Below are positions 12,767-22,798 of a stretch of DNA of 64,000 bases, in pieces. A program made the position numbers and the translations under genes. The DNA is taken from contig NZ_JPOJ01000001.1 in the NCBI RefSeq assembly GCF_000733855.1, positions 372,001 through 436,000 of the forward strand, in the 5' to 3' direction. This DNA is from Methylomicrobium agile (lineage in GTDB: Bacteria; Pseudomonadota; Gammaproteobacteria; Methylococcales; Methylomonadaceae). The stretch's first letter is position 1; every line of letters starts with the position of its first letter. The notes under the pieces were generated by a model. The model was not told the DNA's origin. It made no database searches and saw only the letters and a list, made by a program, of their open reading frames with translations.

Positions 12767-13759
12767 ATGGCTGTATTAGATTCGATCGCGATAGAAATTC
12801 AGGCCACGGTTGCCGGGGTGCTGATCCTGCTAATCATTACGTTACTGGAAATCATCGATTTGCGGCGTGCGCGCAGGCAGCACCGCAAGTCTTTACACGC
12901 AATCGCCCATAACGCGGAGCCGGCCCGGAACAAACGGCTGATCTCGCCTTTCAGCCTGATTTTACAGTTCATTTTCGGCTTCTCCGCTTTTGCGCTGTTC
13001 GTTTTCTGGATGAGGTATCTGATCGACAGAGAAATGCCGGTCCTGGCCGGGGTCGCAGGCGTTTCGGCCTTTATCGCGGCGATCATGCCGTTTGTCGTCT
13101 GGAGCGTCGTCTGGAAAACCCGCAAGGAGACGGCCGCAGCCATTAAACAAGCCGAACAGCACAGCCAGGAACCCGCACTTCGCCAAAAGGCCCCTGAAGA
13201 AGCAGCGCCCCCGGCGCCGGCACCTGCGGTTAAAGAAACAGTCTCCGTTGCCGACGAGCCGCCCATCCATGAACCGGCGCCGATCCTCCCGCCTGAACCG
13301 CCTGCGGAACCGGAGCCGGCAGCCAACACGGAAACCAAGCCTTCACCCTATCCGAAACCCGACCCGACGCATGTATTTCCTCAGGATTCGATGCTGCGCC
13401 GGCATTTTATGACGCATTTGGCCGCGACGGTCAAATCCTATGAACCCGTTCGGCCCACCGACTCGATGCTTCGGCGCCATTACGATGCGACAGTGGCGGC
13501 CCTGGCGTCGGCAATTTCCTCCCAACCGGAGAAAACGCCCGCTCCCGAGACGGCAAAGTCGTCATCCAAGGAAAGCCAACAGACAAAAACTCCCGAAGAC
13601 TCGATGCTCAAACGGCATTTTATAACGACATTGCAGTCGAAAATCGAGTCGCATCTGTCGCTACCTCCGCGGCCGACCGATTCGATGCTGCGCCGCCATT
13701 ATGAGACCATGAGAGAGAGCTTGGTTGCTGCGGAGCTGAAAAAATATCTGGAAGGATAA
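12767..13759 (+). CDS. Membrane protein with four DSML[RK]RH[FY] repeats
   Basis: I do not recognise this 330-residue protein. It has three predicted membrane helices (about residues 14-30, 63-82 and 93-115), a long Pro/Ala/Glu-rich linker (about 137-205), and a cytoplasmic or periplasmic tail with four near-identical octapeptides at residues 207-214, 232-239, 278-285 and 305-312. The last residue alternates Phe, Tyr, Phe, Tyr, so the tail looks like a duplicated two-repeat unit. Each repeat is followed by an amphipathic helix-like stretch. A strong AGGAGGAG ribosome binding site precedes the start. Confidence 0.8.
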   Translation: MAVLDSIAIEIQATVAGVLILLIITLLEIIDLRRARRQHRKSLHAIAHNAEPARNKRLISPFSLILQFIFGFSAFALFVFWMRYLIDREMPVLAGVAGVSAFIAAIMPFVVWSVVWKTRKETAAAIKQAEQHSQEPALRQKAPEEAAPPAPAPAVKETVSVADEPPIHEPAPILPPEPPAEPEPAANTETKPSPYPKPDPTHVFPQDSMLRRHFMTHLAATVKSYEPVRPTDSMLRRHYDATVAALASAISSQPEKTPAPETAKSSSKESQQTKTPEDSMLKRHFITTLQSKIESHLSLPPRPTDSMLRRHYETMRESLVAAELKKYLEG

Positions 13760-16888: not shown

Positions 16889-17230
16889 ATGCACGAACTG
16901 TCCCTCCTATGGAGCGTACGGGAAACGCTCGAAGAACAAGCGCTGGAACACAAATTCAGCAAGGTCGTCCAAGTCACCTTGGAAATAGGCCGGTTAGCCT
17001 GCGTGGAAACGGCCGCCCTTCGTTTCTGTTTCGATACCGTCATGAAAGATTCGCTGGCGGAAAATGCCGAGCTGGTGATTTTGGAAATCAAGGGAGTGGG
17101 GATTTGCCGGCAGTGCGGCGAACGCTCGGAGATGGAATCACTCTACATCCCCTGCACGCATTGCGGCAGCCTGCATGTTGAACTTGTCCAAGGGATTGGC
17201 ATGAAAATCAAAGACCTAATCGTTATTTAA
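16889..17230 (+). CDS. hypA: Hydrogenase nickel incorporation protein HypA
   Basis: HypA delivers nickel to the [NiFe] active site together with HypB. The 113-residue protein begins MHE, with the nickel-binding His at position 2, and has the structural zinc site C73-x2-C76 and C89-x2-C92. It faces the hydrogenase operon and its last 15 bases overlap the 3' end of the Rieske-GGDEF-EAL gene tail to tail. HypB, C, D, E and F are not in the window, so the remaining maturation genes must be elsewhere. Confidence 0.95.
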   Translation: MHELSLLWSVRETLEEQALEHKFSKVVQVTLEIGRLACVETAALRFCFDTVMKDSLAENAELVILEIKGVGICRQCGERSEMESLYIPCTHCGSLHVELVQGIGMKIKDLIVI

Positions 17231-19864
17231 AGACGCGGTGAAATCCACCGCGTGTTTATTCGGGTCAAGCCAGAGCCTTTCGAACTCATCCGCCGAAAGC
17301 GGGGGCGAGAAATAGTAACCTTGAAACTCGTCGCAGCCGTGTGCTTTAAGCACAGCCAATTGGGATTCGTTTTCCACCCCTTCGGCAACCACCGTCATAT
17401 TCAGGCTATGCCCTAAAGCGATGATGGTCTTGATAAATATCGCCTCGCTCGAAGTCGGGTCGCCGGTATAGGCCTGAACGAACGAGCGGTCTATTTTGAG
17501 TACTTGGAGAGGCAATTTTTGCAAATAGGACAAAGACGAATAACCCGTCCCGAAATCGTCCATCGCAATACGAATGCCGCGGCTGCGAATTTGGCATAAT
17601 CGTTCGCACGCCTTATCGATGTCGTGCATGACCAGGCTTTCGGTGACTTCCAGCTCGATCCATTCGGGACTCGTGCCGGTTTCCGCCAGTATGCGGTCCA
17701 GAATCGAAACAAAGTCATCATCCAGCAATTGCCGCGGAGAGAGATTGACAGCGATCCTGAACTCCGCAATTTTGTCTTTCCATGCTTTGGCTTGAAGACA
17801 GGCCATTCTGAGTATCCAGGCTCCCAGCGGAATAATCAGTCCCGTTTCCTCTGCAATAGAAATAAAACGATCCGGAGGCATCATCCCGAAACCGGGCCGT
17901 TTCCAGCGAATTAATGCTTCCGCACCGGCAATACGTTCAAGGGAGCCTCCCACTTTAAGCTGGTAATGCAGTTGAAAATCTTCCTGTTCGATCGCCAGCC
18001 TCAACGCATTTTCCAATAGCAGCCTTTGGTGAGCCGCTTCATTCATGCCCGCTTCGAAATATTGAAATTGTCCGCGGCCTTTGGCTTTGGAAGCGTACAT
18101 GGCGGTATCCGCATGCTTGGTTAAAGTATGAAAATCATTGCCGTCATCGGGAAAAACGGCAATGCCGATACTGGTTGTGACATGTATGGCGTGTTCGGCA
18201 ATCTCTATCGGCTTTTGCACCTCGTCGTTCAAACGCTGGGCCAATTCTGTCGAATCGGCGATTCCTATCAAGCCGGGAAGAATGATGGTGAACTCATCCC
18301 CCCCCAAACGCGAGATCGTATCCGACTCCCTCAGGCAGCGTTGTATCCGGCTGGCGACAATTTTCAGCAGATAATCGCCTACCCAATGCCCAAGCGTATC
18401 GTTAACATTTTTGAAATGGTCAAGATCGAGAAAAAAAACCGCCAAACGGGTATGGCTACGCTGGGCTACCCGAATTTCATGCTCCAGCCTGTCCTTGAAT
18501 AAGGCCCGGTTGGGAAGCTGAGTCAGGGCATCGTAATAGGCGAGTTGCTGAAGCTGTTGCTCTGTCTGTTTTTGCTGGCTGATGTCGGAGCAAACCGCCA
18601 CATAATGCATGAGCTGATCCTGATCGTCATAAACGGCATTGATGCTCGCAAGCATCGGACATAATTCACCGTTTTTTCGGCGATCCCAGATTTCTCCCCT
18701 CCAGGATCCGTGATTCAATAAAGAGTGCCACAGCTGTTTGTAAAATGCCTGATCATGCATGTTCGATTTCAGCAAGCGAGTATTCTTACCCAGGACTTCT
18801 CCCCGCTCATAGCCGGTAATTTCGCAGAATGAGTCATTAACTTCCTGGATAGTACCCTGGGGATCGGTGATAAAAATCGCCTCGCTGCAATTGTCGAAAA
18901 CTTTGCTGCTCAGCCGCAGCCGCATTTCCCGCACTTTCAGCTCGGTGATATTCAGCGCGGTGATGACAGCGCCTTCCAATTTTCCTTGTTCCGAGTGCAA
19001 TACGCTGCTTTTTAGCCAATAGACGGCTTGGGCATTATCGAGATGTTTGCTCAACAGTTCATGTTCGCCGCTGTAACAGCCATTCAACCGAATGGTTTCC
19101 ATCACGACCGAATGCACCGGCCATGGCAGTATGGGAAGACGATCGGCAAGATATTGGCGATCGGCGACAGGCAGCAAATCATCGATGCAGCTCGTCACTA
19201 AATCGGCCTCGGTAAACCCCAACTCGCGCTCCACGGCCGTATTGACCCGGCGAATTCGGCCTTTTTTATCAAAAAAGAACATCAGATCGTCCATGGTATC
19301 CAGAATGCGGTTGACGAAGCGTGCAAACGCTTTCTCCTGCTCGGCCCTTTCCTTGAAGTTCAGCTTTTGCAGCTCCGATTCGCTGAGCATGGCATCCATG
19401 CTGCGGGTGATGACAAGGATTTGCCTCTCTTGCTTCAAATTGGCCATCCGCAGTTGTTCGATCTCTTCACGCATCCGTTCCAGCGCCAAGGAATGCTGGT
19501 CGCCGAAAATCTGGGCGTTTTGATCGACAGGGCCTTCCTCGATCAGGATCACCACGAACCGGCCCTCGACTTTTTCCACGTGATAGCTGTGCGTGTCATT
19601 CAGTGCTTCAATGCACAGTTGGTGCCCGGGGCAAACCAGCATTTTTTCGCCGACCAATGGGCAATGCGTCAGATTGATGCCCTGATGGGGGCAGAAAGCG
19701 GGAAAGGCCTTGAACTCCCCGAGAATCTCGAAAATAAGAATATCGACGACATGCCGGTTGCCCGGCAACTGGATTCGCCCTGTCCAGCGCGGCGGATCGG
19801 CCGAAGAGATAAAAGAGGCCGATTGAACGGGAATAATTGACAATTTCGGGCTATGAGGACTCAT
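17216..19864 (-). CDS. Rieske-PAS-PAS-GGDEF-EAL cyclic-di-GMP enzyme
   Basis: This 882-residue protein has no membrane segment. Domains in order: a Rieske [2Fe-2S] domain (about 20-112) with both ligand pairs, C58-P-H60 and C78-P-G-H81; a coiled linker (about 125-180); PAS (about 183-310); PAS (about 316-430); GGDEF (about 438-600) with intact GGDEF at 521-525 and an RxxD inhibitory-site motif at 512-515; EAL (about 615-865) with EAL at 649-651. The EAL catalytic residues are all seen (N707, E739, D769-D770, K790, E828, Q848), so both synthesis and breakdown of c-di-GMP look possible. The start codon overlaps the protease stop by four bases (ATGA), making it the fourth gene of the hydrogenase operon. 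Inference: the Rieske centre takes electrons or redox state from the hydrogenase and sets c-di-GMP output. Confidence 0.9.
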   Translation of the reverse strand: MSPHSPKLSIIPVQSASFISSADPPRWTGRIQLPGNRHVVDILIFEILGEFKAFPAFCPHQGINLTHCPLVGEKMLVCPGHQLCIEALNDTHSYHVEKVEGRFVVILIEEGPVDQNAQIFGDQHSLALERMREEIEQLRMANLKQERQILVITRSMDAMLSESELQKLNFKERAEQEKAFARFVNRILDTMDDLMFFFDKKGRIRRVNTAVERELGFTEADLVTSCIDDLLPVADRQYLADRLPILPWPVHSVVMETIRLNGCYSGEHELLSKHLDNAQAVYWLKSSVLHSEQGKLEGAVITALNITELKVREMRLRLSSKVFDNCSEAIFITDPQGTIQEVNDSFCEITGYERGEVLGKNTRLLKSNMHDQAFYKQLWHSLLNHGSWRGEIWDRRKNGELCPMLASINAVYDDQDQLMHYVAVCSDISQQKQTEQQLQQLAYYDALTQLPNRALFKDRLEHEIRVAQRSHTRLAVFFLDLDHFKNVNDTLGHWVGDYLLKIVASRIQRCLRESDTISRLGGDEFTIILPGLIGIADSTELAQRLNDEVQKPIEIAEHAIHVTTSIGIAVFPDDGNDFHTLTKHADTAMYASKAKGRGQFQYFEAGMNEAAHQRLLLENALRLAIEQEDFQLHYQLKVGGSLERIAGAEALIRWKRPGFGMMPPDRFISIAEETGLIIPLGAWILRMACLQAKAWKDKIAEFRIAVNLSPRQLLDDDFVSILDRILAETGTSPEWIELEVTESLVMHDIDKACERLCQIRSRGIRIAMDDFGTGYSSLSYLQKLPLQVLKIDRSFVQAYTGDPTSSEAIFIKTIIALGHSLNMTVVAEGVENESQLAVLKAHGCDEFQGYYFSPPLSADEFERLWLDPNKHAVDFTASLNND

Positions 19865-20313
19865 ACGATAACGAGGCCCCGTATCAACCGAACCGTTTCA
19901 ATGACGGCACGCTCGGTTTTCTCCGATAAACCGATAAAGAACGGTCTGACGCCCTCTATTTCAACCCCCACAATCCGAATATCCGGCAAAGGTTCCCGGA
20001 TCGCCTTAAGCGCCTCCAGTAAGTAGGGAATGCCTAGGCCGTGACCGCTCAGCTCCTGCCTTCCTTCAGCCAGATCTTCGGATTTTAATACATAAATTTG
20101 GCCCGGACTCCCGAAATTGGCCAATGCATCGACCAAAATCACCCGGCTGCAATTTTCCAGAAAGCGGAGCGCGTTGAGCCCGGCGACGCCGGCGTTGAAC
20201 ACCTTCACATCGTTCGGCCATACCTGACGGCAAAGCATCTCATAAACGCGCATGCCGAATCCGTCGTCCCCGTGCAATTCGTTACCGAAGCAAACAATAT
20301 GGCACATGTTCAT
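19861..20313 (-). CDS. Hydrogenase maturation protease (HyaD/HupD family)
   Basis: The 150-residue protein belongs to the M52 endopeptidases that trim the C-terminus of the [NiFe] large subunit after nickel insertion. The GNELHGDDGFG start, D62 in ILVDAL, and H91 in SGHGLG match the nickel-sensing residues, with DD in place of the usual DE near residue 16. It starts one base after the large subunit stop codon. Its presence is notable because the large subunit has only a 12-residue tail after the last metal-ligating motif. Confidence 0.88.
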   Translation of the reverse strand: MNMCHIVCFGNELHGDDGFGMRVYEMLCRQVWPNDVKVFNAGVAGLNALRFLENCSRVILVDALANFGSPGQIYVLKSEDLAEGRQELSGHGLGIPYLLEALKAIREPLPDIRIVGVEIEGVRPFFIGLSEKTERAVIETVRLIRGLVIV

Positions 20314-20314
20314 T

Positions 20315-21853
20315 TTAAGGCCATACGGTGAGGCGCTTGCCGGTGTCGAGAAGATGCACGGTACAAACCAGGCAGGGATCGTGGGAGCGAATGATATGGC
20401 CGATTTCCACAGGATCGTCCGGATCCTCGACCGTCAAACCGATCAAACTGCTTTCCCAATGCCCGTGCCGTCCTTCGCTGTCTTTCGGCGAGGCATTCCA
20501 AGCTGTCGGCGTGATGACCTGATAGCGGCTAATGACACCGTCCCTGACCTGCAGCCAATGCCCCAGTGCGCCGCGAGCGGCGGTAACCAACCCAAAGCCT
20601 TCGCCGTCGGGAATTTCTTTGTCGGCAGGCGGAAGGATATGCGGCTCGCCGGGATGCGCGGCCAACTCGTGCAATAGTTGCGACATTGCCTTGAGCAGCC
20701 GCGCCGTACGGTGCAGACGGGCGAACTGGCGCAGCCAGGCATTGCCGCCTTCGGCCCGATAGAGCGCATGAATCAGGGGTTCGCCGTCGATCAGCGCATC
20801 GGCCAGGGGCCCGGTTTGCACCACCTTGTCCCGATAGCGCGGCGCCTTGCACCAGGTATAACGATCGGAATGGGGCTGATAATCGGGGACGGTCTGCCCC
20901 TGAAACGGATGGCGCCCGCCCGGATAAGGAAGAAACCAGGAATAACGCACATGTTCGGTGATTTCGTTCTGGTCGAACGGTTCGATACTCCCGGCATCGC
21001 CATTCAGGAAACCGGCTTTAAACAAGCGTTTGCGGTAAGGAGAGAAATTTTCCACATCTTCCGGATCGTCGTAAGCCCCATAACTGATCATGTGCGGAGT
21101 TCCGCAACCCAGCCGGTGCAGGCCGATCTCGCGGCTCATCCGGGTCAGCAATCCAATGGCGCTGTCGGCATGGGCTTCTCCCGCCTCCAGCCAGTCGAAA
21201 AATTCATCGGCGGATTGCAGCGCCAGCCAATCGTCCAGGGGCGTCCCGATCACGGATTTCTCGAACCACCGCGTCAGCTTGTTGAGCAGCGACAGGCCGT
21301 CGATGAGGTGGCGGCTGCTTGCCGGCGTCGTCACGCCGCCCGGCACCATGTAAGAGGAATGCGGCCATTGGCCGCCGAACAGGGCGATGATCTCGACGAT
21401 ATGCCTCGAATGTTCCAAAGCGCCGCGGTAAATCTCTCCCTGAAACGGTAAGAATGCCGCCCGCGCCTTGTCATACAAGGGCAACGACCGGTATTTAGGA
21501 TGGCAAAAATCGGCGGTGAAAAACAAAAAGGATTGCCTAAGATCGCTTTGCACCGTCTCGGCCATCAGGCACAAATTGCGGATGCGCATGGCGGCGGGCG
21601 GAACCGGCAGGCGGGCGAGATGCTCCAGCGCGAGCACGGCGGCATTCAATTGCGCGGTGCCGCAAATACCGCAGATACGCGGAGTCATGACCAAAGCATC
21701 CATGGGTTTACGGCCCAGGAGGATCTGTTCGAATCCTCTGTAGAGGGAACCCACACAGCGGGCGTCGACAATCCGGCTACCCTCCAATTCGAGTTGGAAA
21801 TCCACGTCCCCCTCGACGCGGTTCATGTCGATTTGGATGATCTTTCTCGACAT
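20315..21853 (-). CDS. [NiFe]-hydrogenase large subunit (soluble, group 2-like)
   Basis: This 512-residue subunit carries the NiFe(CN)2CO active site. The L1 motif is RICGICGTAQ (C61, C64) and the L2 motif is DPCLVCTVH (C494, C497, H500), giving all four nickel cysteines. Where uptake enzymes usually have His at the end of L1 there is Gln (Q68), a feature I recall from sensory HupUV/HoxBC enzymes. Twelve residues follow H500. The NRVEGD start replaces the RIEGH of group 1 enzymes. It lies three bases after the small subunit gene and one base before the protease gene. Subgroup (2b, 2c or other) is inferred, not shown. Confidence 0.9.
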   Translation of the reverse strand: MSRKIIQIDMNRVEGDVDFQLELEGSRIVDARCVGSLYRGFEQILLGRKPMDALVMTPRICGICGTAQLNAAVLALEHLARLPVPPAAMRIRNLCLMAETVQSDLRQSFLFFTADFCHPKYRSLPLYDKARAAFLPFQGEIYRGALEHSRHIVEIIALFGGQWPHSSYMVPGGVTTPASSRHLIDGLSLLNKLTRWFEKSVIGTPLDDWLALQSADEFFDWLEAGEAHADSAIGLLTRMSREIGLHRLGCGTPHMISYGAYDDPEDVENFSPYRKRLFKAGFLNGDAGSIEPFDQNEITEHVRYSWFLPYPGGRHPFQGQTVPDYQPHSDRYTWCKAPRYRDKVVQTGPLADALIDGEPLIHALYRAEGGNAWLRQFARLHRTARLLKAMSQLLHELAAHPGEPHILPPADKEIPDGEGFGLVTAARGALGHWLQVRDGVISRYQVITPTAWNASPKDSEGRHGHWESSLIGLTVEDPDDPVEIGHIIRSHDPCLVCTVHLLDTGKRLTVWP

Positions 21854-21856
21854 AAC

Positions 21857-22798
21857 TTAAGGATCCATCTTTTTATTCAATACCCGCAAAGGCGCCGCTT
21901 CGTGCGCCAAGCTTTTGTACGCCATATAATTGGAGCGCGCCACATCCAACGGCAGGTGTACCGGTACCTCGCCGATTTTTTCGGTGCGGAACAAATCGTG
22001 GTCCAGAGGAAAATCGGGGGAAGTGCAGCCGAAACACGGTACGCCAGCCCGGGTCTTGCTGCTGCGGCCGTTCCAGAGTTCCGTATTGCATATCGCCACC
22101 GTCATCGGCCCCTGACAGCCCAAATTGAAAAACAGGCAGGCCTTATTGCCGAACTCGGCGTCCTCGACATCGTATTCGTGATACTCGATGCGGGTGCAGC
22201 CCTGGTGCACCATGGTATTGAAAAAAGCTTTCGGACGATTCAAATGGTCGAGTTCGACCGGCAGCCCGGAAGCCAGCATGGCCAGCGTTTTGGTCATTGC
22301 ATTGGGATGGGCGGGACAGCCCGAAATATTGATGACGGGAAGTCCCTTGCGCGACCGCCATTCGATCGGCAAAAGTCCACCGGGATTTTTCTTATCGAAT
22401 TGCAGGCCGAGGCAATCGGTAGGATTGGGCGGCGCGGCATGAACGCCGCCGTAAGCGGCGCAAGTGCCCATCGCCACCACGTATTCGGCTTTCTCGACCA
22501 ACTCCCGGACCAGGCTCATTTTGGAGCGTCCGCGATAGGGATCGTACATGCCTGAGCCGTCGGGCCCGGTTATGATGCTGCCTTCGATGCATAAAACATC
22601 CAGTGCTTGCCGATCCGCCAGAATGGCCTCGATCAAGACATCCAGTTTTTTCATCGGCTCCATGGATAAAGATGGCTGCCAGAGTACTTCGATGCCATAC
22701 TCGTCGACAAGGTCTTCCAGAGAGGGACTGTCCGCGCAGAGCATCGACATGGTGTCCCCCCCGCAAGAGCCGGTTTGCAGCCAAAGCAATGCCGTCAC
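21857..22798 (-). CDS. [NiFe]-hydrogenase small subunit with Asp in proximal motif
   Basis: The 313-residue electron-transfer subunit has no Tat signal, so the enzyme is cytoplasmic. The proximal-cluster motif is GSCGGDT, where most enzymes have CxxC, so one ligand is Asp; the other two expected cysteines are in GTCAAYGG and SGCPAHP. Distal ligands (HQGC, ACLFFNLGC) and medial ligands (ICN, PCFGC) are present, giving a complete relay. The start is GTG with a CGGAG ribosome binding site five bases upstream. A run of seven G residues encodes part of the CGGD motif. It is the first gene of the four-gene operon. The upstream gap (22799-22912) is AT-rich and no clear promoter could be assigned. 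Confidence 0.9.
   Translation of the reverse strand: MTALLWLQTGSCGGDTMSMLCADSPSLEDLVDEYGIEVLWQPSLSMEPMKKLDVLIEAILADRQALDVLCIEGSIITGPDGSGMYDPYRGRSKMSLVRELVEKAEYVVAMGTCAAYGGVHAAPPNPTDCLGLQFDKKNPGGLLPIEWRSRKGLPVINISGCPAHPNAMTKTLAMLASGLPVELDHLNRPKAFFNTMVHQGCTRIEYHEYDVEDAEFGNKACLFFNLGCQGPMTVAICNTELWNGRSSKTRAGVPCFGCTSPDFPLDHDLFRTEKIGEVPVHLPLDVARSNYMAYKSLAHEAAPLRVLNKKMDP

Follow-up and report, generated by a model that had tools for sequence, protein, structure and literature searches.

The 64,000-nucleotide stretch of the Methylomicrobium agile genome analyzed here (NCBI RefSeq assembly GCF_000733855.1, contig NZ_JPOJ01000001.1, positions 372,001 to 436,000; family Methylomonadaceae, class Gammaproteobacteria, phylum Pseudomonadota), called the window below and numbered from its first letter, carries on its minus strand, reading from 22798 to 17216, an operon of four genes that encode a [NiFe]-hydrogenase small subunit, a large subunit, a maturation protease and a multidomain cyclic di-GMP (c-di-GMP) enzyme, here called the effector, with a Rieske domain at its N terminus. 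A preliminary description of this DNA had reported the four genes to be packed head to tail, with gaps of 3 bases and 1 base followed by a 4-base ATGA overlap, and this layout was confirmed base for base, the overlap being that of the protease and effector genes. The four genes and the C-terminal end of the large subunit are placed as follows.

21857 to 22798, minus strand: [NiFe]-hydrogenase small subunit, 313 amino acids, GTG start; Oxidored_q6 and NiFe_hyd_SSU_C (Pfam/NCBIfam).
20315 to 21853, minus strand: [NiFe]-hydrogenase large subunit, assigned to the group 2c type, 512 amino acids; NiFeSe_Hases, 1e-80.
20318 to 20374, minus strand: L2 motif CLVCTVH (SHDP before it) together with the 12-residue C-terminal extension of the large subunit, LLDTGKRLTVWP (read from the sequence).
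19861 to 20313, minus strand: hydrogenase maturation protease, HycI/HyaD superfamily, 150 amino acids; PF01750 at 60 bits, TIGR00072 at 107.7 bits (cutoff, 47).
17216 to 19864, minus strand: effector, Rieske-coiled coil-PAS-PAS-GGDEF-EAL, 882 amino acids (Pfam/NCBIfam and alignments).

Because the small subunit has no signal peptide, the hydrogenase is predicted to be cytosolic, in keeping with the soluble, sensory-type enzyme of the preliminary description. The ligand positions of its distal cluster (H198, C201, C221 and C228) and of its medial cluster (C237, C255 and C258), assigned by analogy with standard small subunits, are all present, and the proximal-cluster motif reads C12-G-G-D15, Asp replacing Cys. 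The large subunit continues for 12 residues after H500, an extension of the type cut off by a maturation protease. The closest relative of the small subunit in the PDB is the Huc small subunit (7uur; 1.6e-82), and Huc, a group 2a enzyme, is the closest solved structure for both subunits.

We assigned the hydrogenase to the group 2c type of HydDB from its L2 motif, its place in a tree of large subunits and the adjoining c-di-GMP gene rather than from the HydDB classifier. The motif, SHDPCLVCTVH, fits the group 2c consensus SFDxCLVCTVH (SHDaCLVCTVH in Thiomargarita), and the adjoining GGDEF/EAL gene expected of this group is present. The tree, a comparison that had been proposed as a check, placed all operons of this type in a single clade (100/100) and split them (98/93) from the Huc-type (2a) and HupV-type (2b) rows, an outgroup of only six rows assigned by neighborhood and annotation. 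The sister clade, in which L2 is SFDPCLVCTVH or a near variant, carries kinase or GGDEF effectors that lack a Rieske domain. The proximal motif also follows the groups: every group 2c-type row has C-[GS]-G-[DE], whereas the Huc-type 2a rows read C-S-G-N and the three 2b rows C-G-G-C, and in these alignments the proximal position is a one-residue marker of the group 2c-type subgroup. Small subunits of this type are likely, judging by the motif, to hold an unusual proximal cluster, with Asp or Glu as a ligand or with three Cys.

The effector joins its Rieske domain to a coiled coil, two PAS domains and both of the domains of c-di-GMP turnover, in the following order.

19535 to 19843, minus strand: Rieske [2Fe-2S] domain, about residues 8 to 110 (PF00355, AlphaFold with fold search, PDB profile matches).
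19622 to 19693, minus strand: Rieske ligand stretch CPH-x17-CPGH (C58, H60, C78, H81), the ligands invariant in three alignments.
19292 to 19501, minus strand: coiled coil LRxEIxxLRxAN..., residues 122 to 191 (alignments), also present in effectors of this operon type that lack a Rieske or are kinases.
18950 to 19312, minus strand: PAS1, about residues 185 to 305, weakly FixL-like (Pfam and PDB comparison).
18575 to 18904, minus strand: PAS2, residues 321 to 430 (Pfam), closest in the PDB to the flavin adenine dinucleotide (FAD)-PAS domains of MmoS and NifL.
18071 to 18541, minus strand: GGDEF domain with RxxD I-site (R512, D515) and GGDEF at residues 521 to 525 (5e-52).
17300 to 18010, minus strand: EAL domain, catalytic residues intact (3e-69).

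All of the GGDEF, I-site and EAL residues that we checked are present, as had been claimed, including E649, N707, E739, D769/D770, K790 and E828 of the EAL domain. Both output domains look competent by these residues, so the sign of the output, and with it the direction of any change in c-di-GMP, could go either way.

The Rieske domain received a low single-sequence Pfam score (22.5 bits against a cutoff of 20.3), and we considered whether it might be a Pfam artifact. This was rejected: PF00355 was also matched by 16 of 16 aligned relatives, a profile of the effector N terminus retrieved Rieske proteins in the PDB, and an AlphaFold model of residues 1 to 151, with a predicted local distance difference test score (pLDDT) of about 83 to 93 over most of the domain, ranked Rieske ferredoxins and Rieske oxygenases first in fold searches (Foldseek, VIA), the best VIA match being 2qpz (Z, 7.6; 91 residues; 3.3 Å), for which the Z score alone is middling. 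The ligands C58xH60 and C78xxH81 lie where the preliminary description had put them, agree with the Rieske pattern CxH-x(about 15-18)-CxxH and are invariant in three alignments, one of which reaches down to about 21 to 30% identity. We concluded from the alignments and the predicted fold that the N-terminal Rieske domain is real. Among 31 copies, 29 (28 fused proteins and one separate gene) retain all four ligands; the degenerate copies, at loci L175 (a separate gene in which the last His has become Tyr) and L187, have lost ligands and keep the domain. Such copies, and a Pfam score barely over the cutoff, are what one would see if the fold had been retained for structure or docking only, with no cluster bound, but the survival of all four ligands in 29 of 31 highly divergent copies makes this explanation very improbable, and the domain probably binds its cluster.

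When all 237 genomes of the family were surveyed with a Rieske-plus-coil profile, exactly 20 full-length matches were obtained (120 to 262 bits), every one of which retains CxH and CxxH and has the small-subunit, large-subunit and protease genes directly upstream. The next best matches, at 45 bits, were stand-alone ferredoxins of about 110 residues. Evenly drawn samples of 369 genomes from the class and 398 from the phylum yielded no Rieske-coil effector without a hydrogenase, in a search that scores only about ten candidates per genome and so could let rare exceptions escape; the one extra hit there (genome G424) was a stand-alone ferredoxin of 110 amino acids with no effector or hydrogenase beside it on its 4-kb contig. 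An earlier class-wide search with a single sequence gave weak partial matches only. The preliminary description had set its proposal against the case in which such effectors mostly occur without a hydrogenase, and the distribution found is the opposite one.

A scan of named genomes and a reading of gene neighborhoods extended the picture beyond the family. Rieske-GGDEF-EAL effectors occur in Methylocaldum sp. 14B (L196), in a Sulfuricella metagenome-assembled genome (MAG; L168) and in one genome outside the class (L107); the same Rieske head is carried by histidine kinases of Dechloromonas (L173), Zoogloea (L180) and Rhodocyclaceae (L179, L189, L192); and at locus L170 the Rieske is a separate gene of 114 residues between the protease and a PAS-kinase. 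The Rieske head, by this distribution, goes with the hydrogenase and not with one output type. What had been described was an H2-to-c-di-GMP operon with a Rieske fusion; the operon, the Rieske domain and an intact c-di-GMP enzyme stand, but because histidine kinases carry this head too, and in one case it has a gene to itself, the head is not tied to c-di-GMP, nor is it universal, since operons of the Methylomonas type do without it.

A tree of Rieske domains put all operon Rieskes, the separate and degenerate ones included, on one side of a branch (96/92) and the ordinary Rieske ferredoxins on the other, in an order much like that of the hydrogenase tree, although the comparison drew on just 13 rows of ordinary Rieskes and support is weak for most of the inner branches. 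On the reading of these trees, the Rieske head is co-inherited with the hydrogenase. Mapped on the large-subunit tree, Rieske presence needs five to six changes, and one early gain followed by several losses would fit, because the Rieske is present in the deepest rows (L107 and L170) and degenerate copies exist; this is a reading and not a proof, and it is weakened by the long branch of L107 in that tree.

We propose that this operon is a sensory unit setting c-di-GMP in response to H2, electrons from the hydrogenase entering the effector through the Rieske cluster and shifting the balance of GGDEF and EAL activities, and we lean slightly toward accepting this account. H2 would be split at the [NiFe] site of the cytosolic, group 2c-type hydrogenase, and the electrons would run down the small-subunit relay, from the proximal cluster with Asp for one Cys through the medial to the distal cluster, to enter the effector at the Rieske [2Fe-2S] cluster of its N terminus. 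Reduction or oxidation of that cluster, which would lie beside the dimerizing coil and PAS, could then shift the coil and PAS and thereby the balance of GGDEF against EAL, so that reduction would itself be the signal. We favor a direct inlet of this kind because all 20 Rieske-coil effectors of the family directly follow a hydrogenase and protease, because the ligands have been kept at such low identity, because one Rieske lineage serves GGDEF-EAL enzymes, kinases and a separate gene, and because the operon Rieskes group apart and branch much like the hydrogenase. Three considerations from outside the locus argue the same way: the group 2a hydrogenase Huc cannot oxidize H2 without HucE, which has a Rieske motif (PMC6883350); the acceptor that takes electrons from the group 2b H2 sensor in the cytoplasm is called “yet unknown” (PMC5665086); and Rieske centers are easily reduced by H2. 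Their potentials lie above about −150 mV (PMC6883350), and by the Nernst relation at pH 7, E = −414 mV − 29.5 mV × log10(pH2/atm), −150 mV corresponds to about 1e-9 atm H2, a value calculated with a literature potential and not this protein's.

Several observations weigh against such an inlet. The same operon with a coil-PAS-GGDEF-EAL effector that lacks the Rieske occurs in nine relatives within the family (Methylomonas and related genera) and in several Burkholderiales and Sedimenticola relatives, including Ideonella (L153), and since these relatives keep the operon, a Rieske in the effector is evidently not indispensable to the hydrogenase. The relay ligands of the small subunit are identical in Rieske and Rieske-less operons, so that a distinct relay in the former was considered and rejected. 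To these are to be added the degenerate Rieske copies, a poor AlphaFold model of residues 1 to 440 (pLDDT, 54; usable for the Rieske and one long helix alone) and the lack of key FAD contacts in PAS2, the nearest candidate acceptor behind the Rieske. As the Rieske-less effectors begin at the same coiled coil, their alignment marks the coil and first PAS as the common effector core and the Rieske as a head added or lost.

That core is shared by Rieske and Rieske-less effectors, by kinases and by cyclases, and the operon has been kept where the Rieske was lost or degraded, several times over. Both facts would suit the main rival account, in which H2 is signaled by protein contact, the hydrogenase docking on the coil or PAS as in complexes of regulatory hydrogenases (RH) with kinases, and the Rieske is a second, independent input (an O2 or redox gate, or cluster-dependent docking) of a two-input AND/OR device; the RH heterodimers of group 2b are indeed tightly connected to their kinase (PMC5665086). 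Sensing unrelated to the hydrogenase predicts Rieske-coil effectors without one, yet neither the survey of the entire family nor the samples of class and phylum showed any, and the Rieske tree resembles the hydrogenase tree. We therefore regard signaling by contact with an independent Rieske as unlikely, if still a serious contender.

In another account, the hydrogenase would be a metabolic uptake enzyme, the Rieske, like HucE, a route to an electron sink and the c-di-GMP enzyme a reporter of flux. Its nearest solved relative, Huc, is an uptake enzyme, and the relay ligands and the processed C terminus of the large subunit are intact, but the Rieske is covalently part of a signaling enzyme, and it is unlikely that a regulator would carry a catalytic sink at its tip; moreover, the conserved four-gene unit has no quinone-reactive or cytochrome partner, and a second, Hox-like hydrogenase is encoded elsewhere in the genome together with hyp genes. 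An uptake role is accordingly one that we think improbable.

A flavin in PAS2 was considered as the next acceptor behind the Rieske because PAS2 is closest in the PDB to the FAD-PAS domains of the redox sensors MmoS, NifL and Aer (3ewk, 2gj3 and 8dik; MmoS FAD-PAS, 1.3e-26). At the FAD-contact positions at which Aer and MmoS have Asn, His and Arg, PAS2 has D394, T362 and C425. The Asn that contacts O4/N3 is Asp in 14 of 16 sequences, and although Asp may still bond, the stacking His and the N5-contact Arg are absent, making flavin binding by PAS2 doubtful on this comparison. The potentials weaken the idea further, since the FAD of Aer and MmoS lies near −290 mV, below a typical Rieske, and transfer would be uphill.

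Returning to the Rieske as inlet, we suggest more tentatively that the module, co-inherited with a subclade of group 2c-type hydrogenases, is the electron acceptor of an H2 sensor, with electron transfer as the signal to second-messenger enzymes and kinases alike and with an H2 threshold that would be fixed by the potential of the Rieske and may be low enough for atmospheric H2. In this operon the probable acceptor and the output enzyme form one polypeptide, in which the acceptor could be removed by point mutation, the natural Rieske-less and separate-gene versions serving as controls. Its inheritance together with the hydrogenase and its occurrence on kinases make the Rieske tip a good candidate for the link that is missing between an H2 sensor and its output. 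Among the carriers of the operon is a strain in culture, Methylobacter tundripaludum SV96, and, if the proposal is true, trace H2 would be linked to biofilm or motility decisions in methanotrophs.

A link from H2 to c-di-GMP in group 2c is not new. The HydDB account lists the group as “Diguanylate cyclase-linked (putative)” and states that it “may sense H2 and regulate processes through cyclic di-GMP production,” the c-di-GMP role being listed as undetermined (PMC5037454); the hupSL of M. tundripaludum has been named group 2c, with a possible cyclase/phosphodiesterase partner and a proposed c-di-GMP role (PMC4853749); and Methylobacter genomes carry group 2c (PMC12810054). The present operon resembles these in its cytosolic hupSL, its L2 motif S-[F/H]-D-x-CLVCTVH, its co-encoded c-di-GMP enzyme, the role proposed for it and its occurrence in Methylobacter. 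It differs in belonging to an SHD subclade with a co-inherited Rieske head, a Rieske input not being mentioned in the group 2c passages of PMC5037454 and PMC4853749. It shares with the group 2b system of HupUV/HoxBC and a histidine kinase the logic of a cytosolic H2 sensor encoded beside its regulator; unlike that system, it has a C-terminal extension on the large subunit, a protease gene of its own and a proximal CGGD in place of CGGC, and it falls in a separate clade. The mycobacterial pair Huc and HucE offers both the nearest solved hydrogenase and a Rieske-motif partner. HucE, however, is a separate NifU-Rieske protein that serves respiration, whereas here the Rieske tips a signaling enzyme at its N terminus, and no NifU domain was among the Pfam/NCBIfam matches of the effector. 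Among the papers searched, none joins a Rieske to GGDEF and to a hydrogenase or kinase in this sense, and the Rieske head thus appears to be undescribed. The novelty claimed in the preliminary description accordingly appears to hold for the Rieske tip and not for the H2-to-c-di-GMP link; what is new here is a Rieske module that is co-inherited with the hydrogenase, serves two kinds of output and can also exist as a separate gene.

The genome, of 4.5 Mb, carries the operon on its main contig and has two pmoA genes; it hence belongs to a methanotroph. The genes that flank the operon (YceI, IspA, BolA and others) are common only to the sister species, whereas the four-gene unit stays intact across relatives, which excludes its assembly by chance. 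A scan for promoters and terminators gave no signal above chance, and NifH, sought as a mark of nitrogenase as an H2 source, was not found, there being weak ParA-like matches only. The second [NiFe]-hydrogenase of the genome is a Hox-like cluster at 2755700 to 2766000 of the main contig (HoxEF fusion and HoxU-, HoxY- and HoxH-like genes), of group 3d type by gene content, which includes a protease, HypB, HypF and HypD; these three Hyp proteins presumably also mature the hydrogenase of the operon described here.

Variants of the operon were seen in other bacteria. In Thiorhodococcus, a betaproteobacterial MAG and a proteobacterial MAG, the protease is fused in one frame to a coil-PAS effector (L181, 8172 to 11627; L183, 8247 to 10823, with a kinase motif; L184, 8181 to 11630; all plus strand). 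The operon type is also found in marine Vibrionaceae (Enterovibrio and Vibrio penaeicida; L182, L185, L186, L193), where the effector is a histidine kinase that lacks a Rieske. In Ideonella dechloratans, the operon type with a Rieske-less GGDEF-EAL effector (L153, 11035 to 16736) is carried by a plasmid of 709 kb, through which it may have spread horizontally. The effector frame of a Methylobacter MAG (L082/L158) is split into two overlapping frames, through a frameshift or an assembly error. Elsewhere in the window, positions 12767 to 13759 of the plus strand encode a protein of 330 amino acids with no Pfam/NCBIfam match, a hydrophobic N terminus and a Pro/Glu-rich tail that bears four copies of the motif [PE]xDSMLRRH[FY]...

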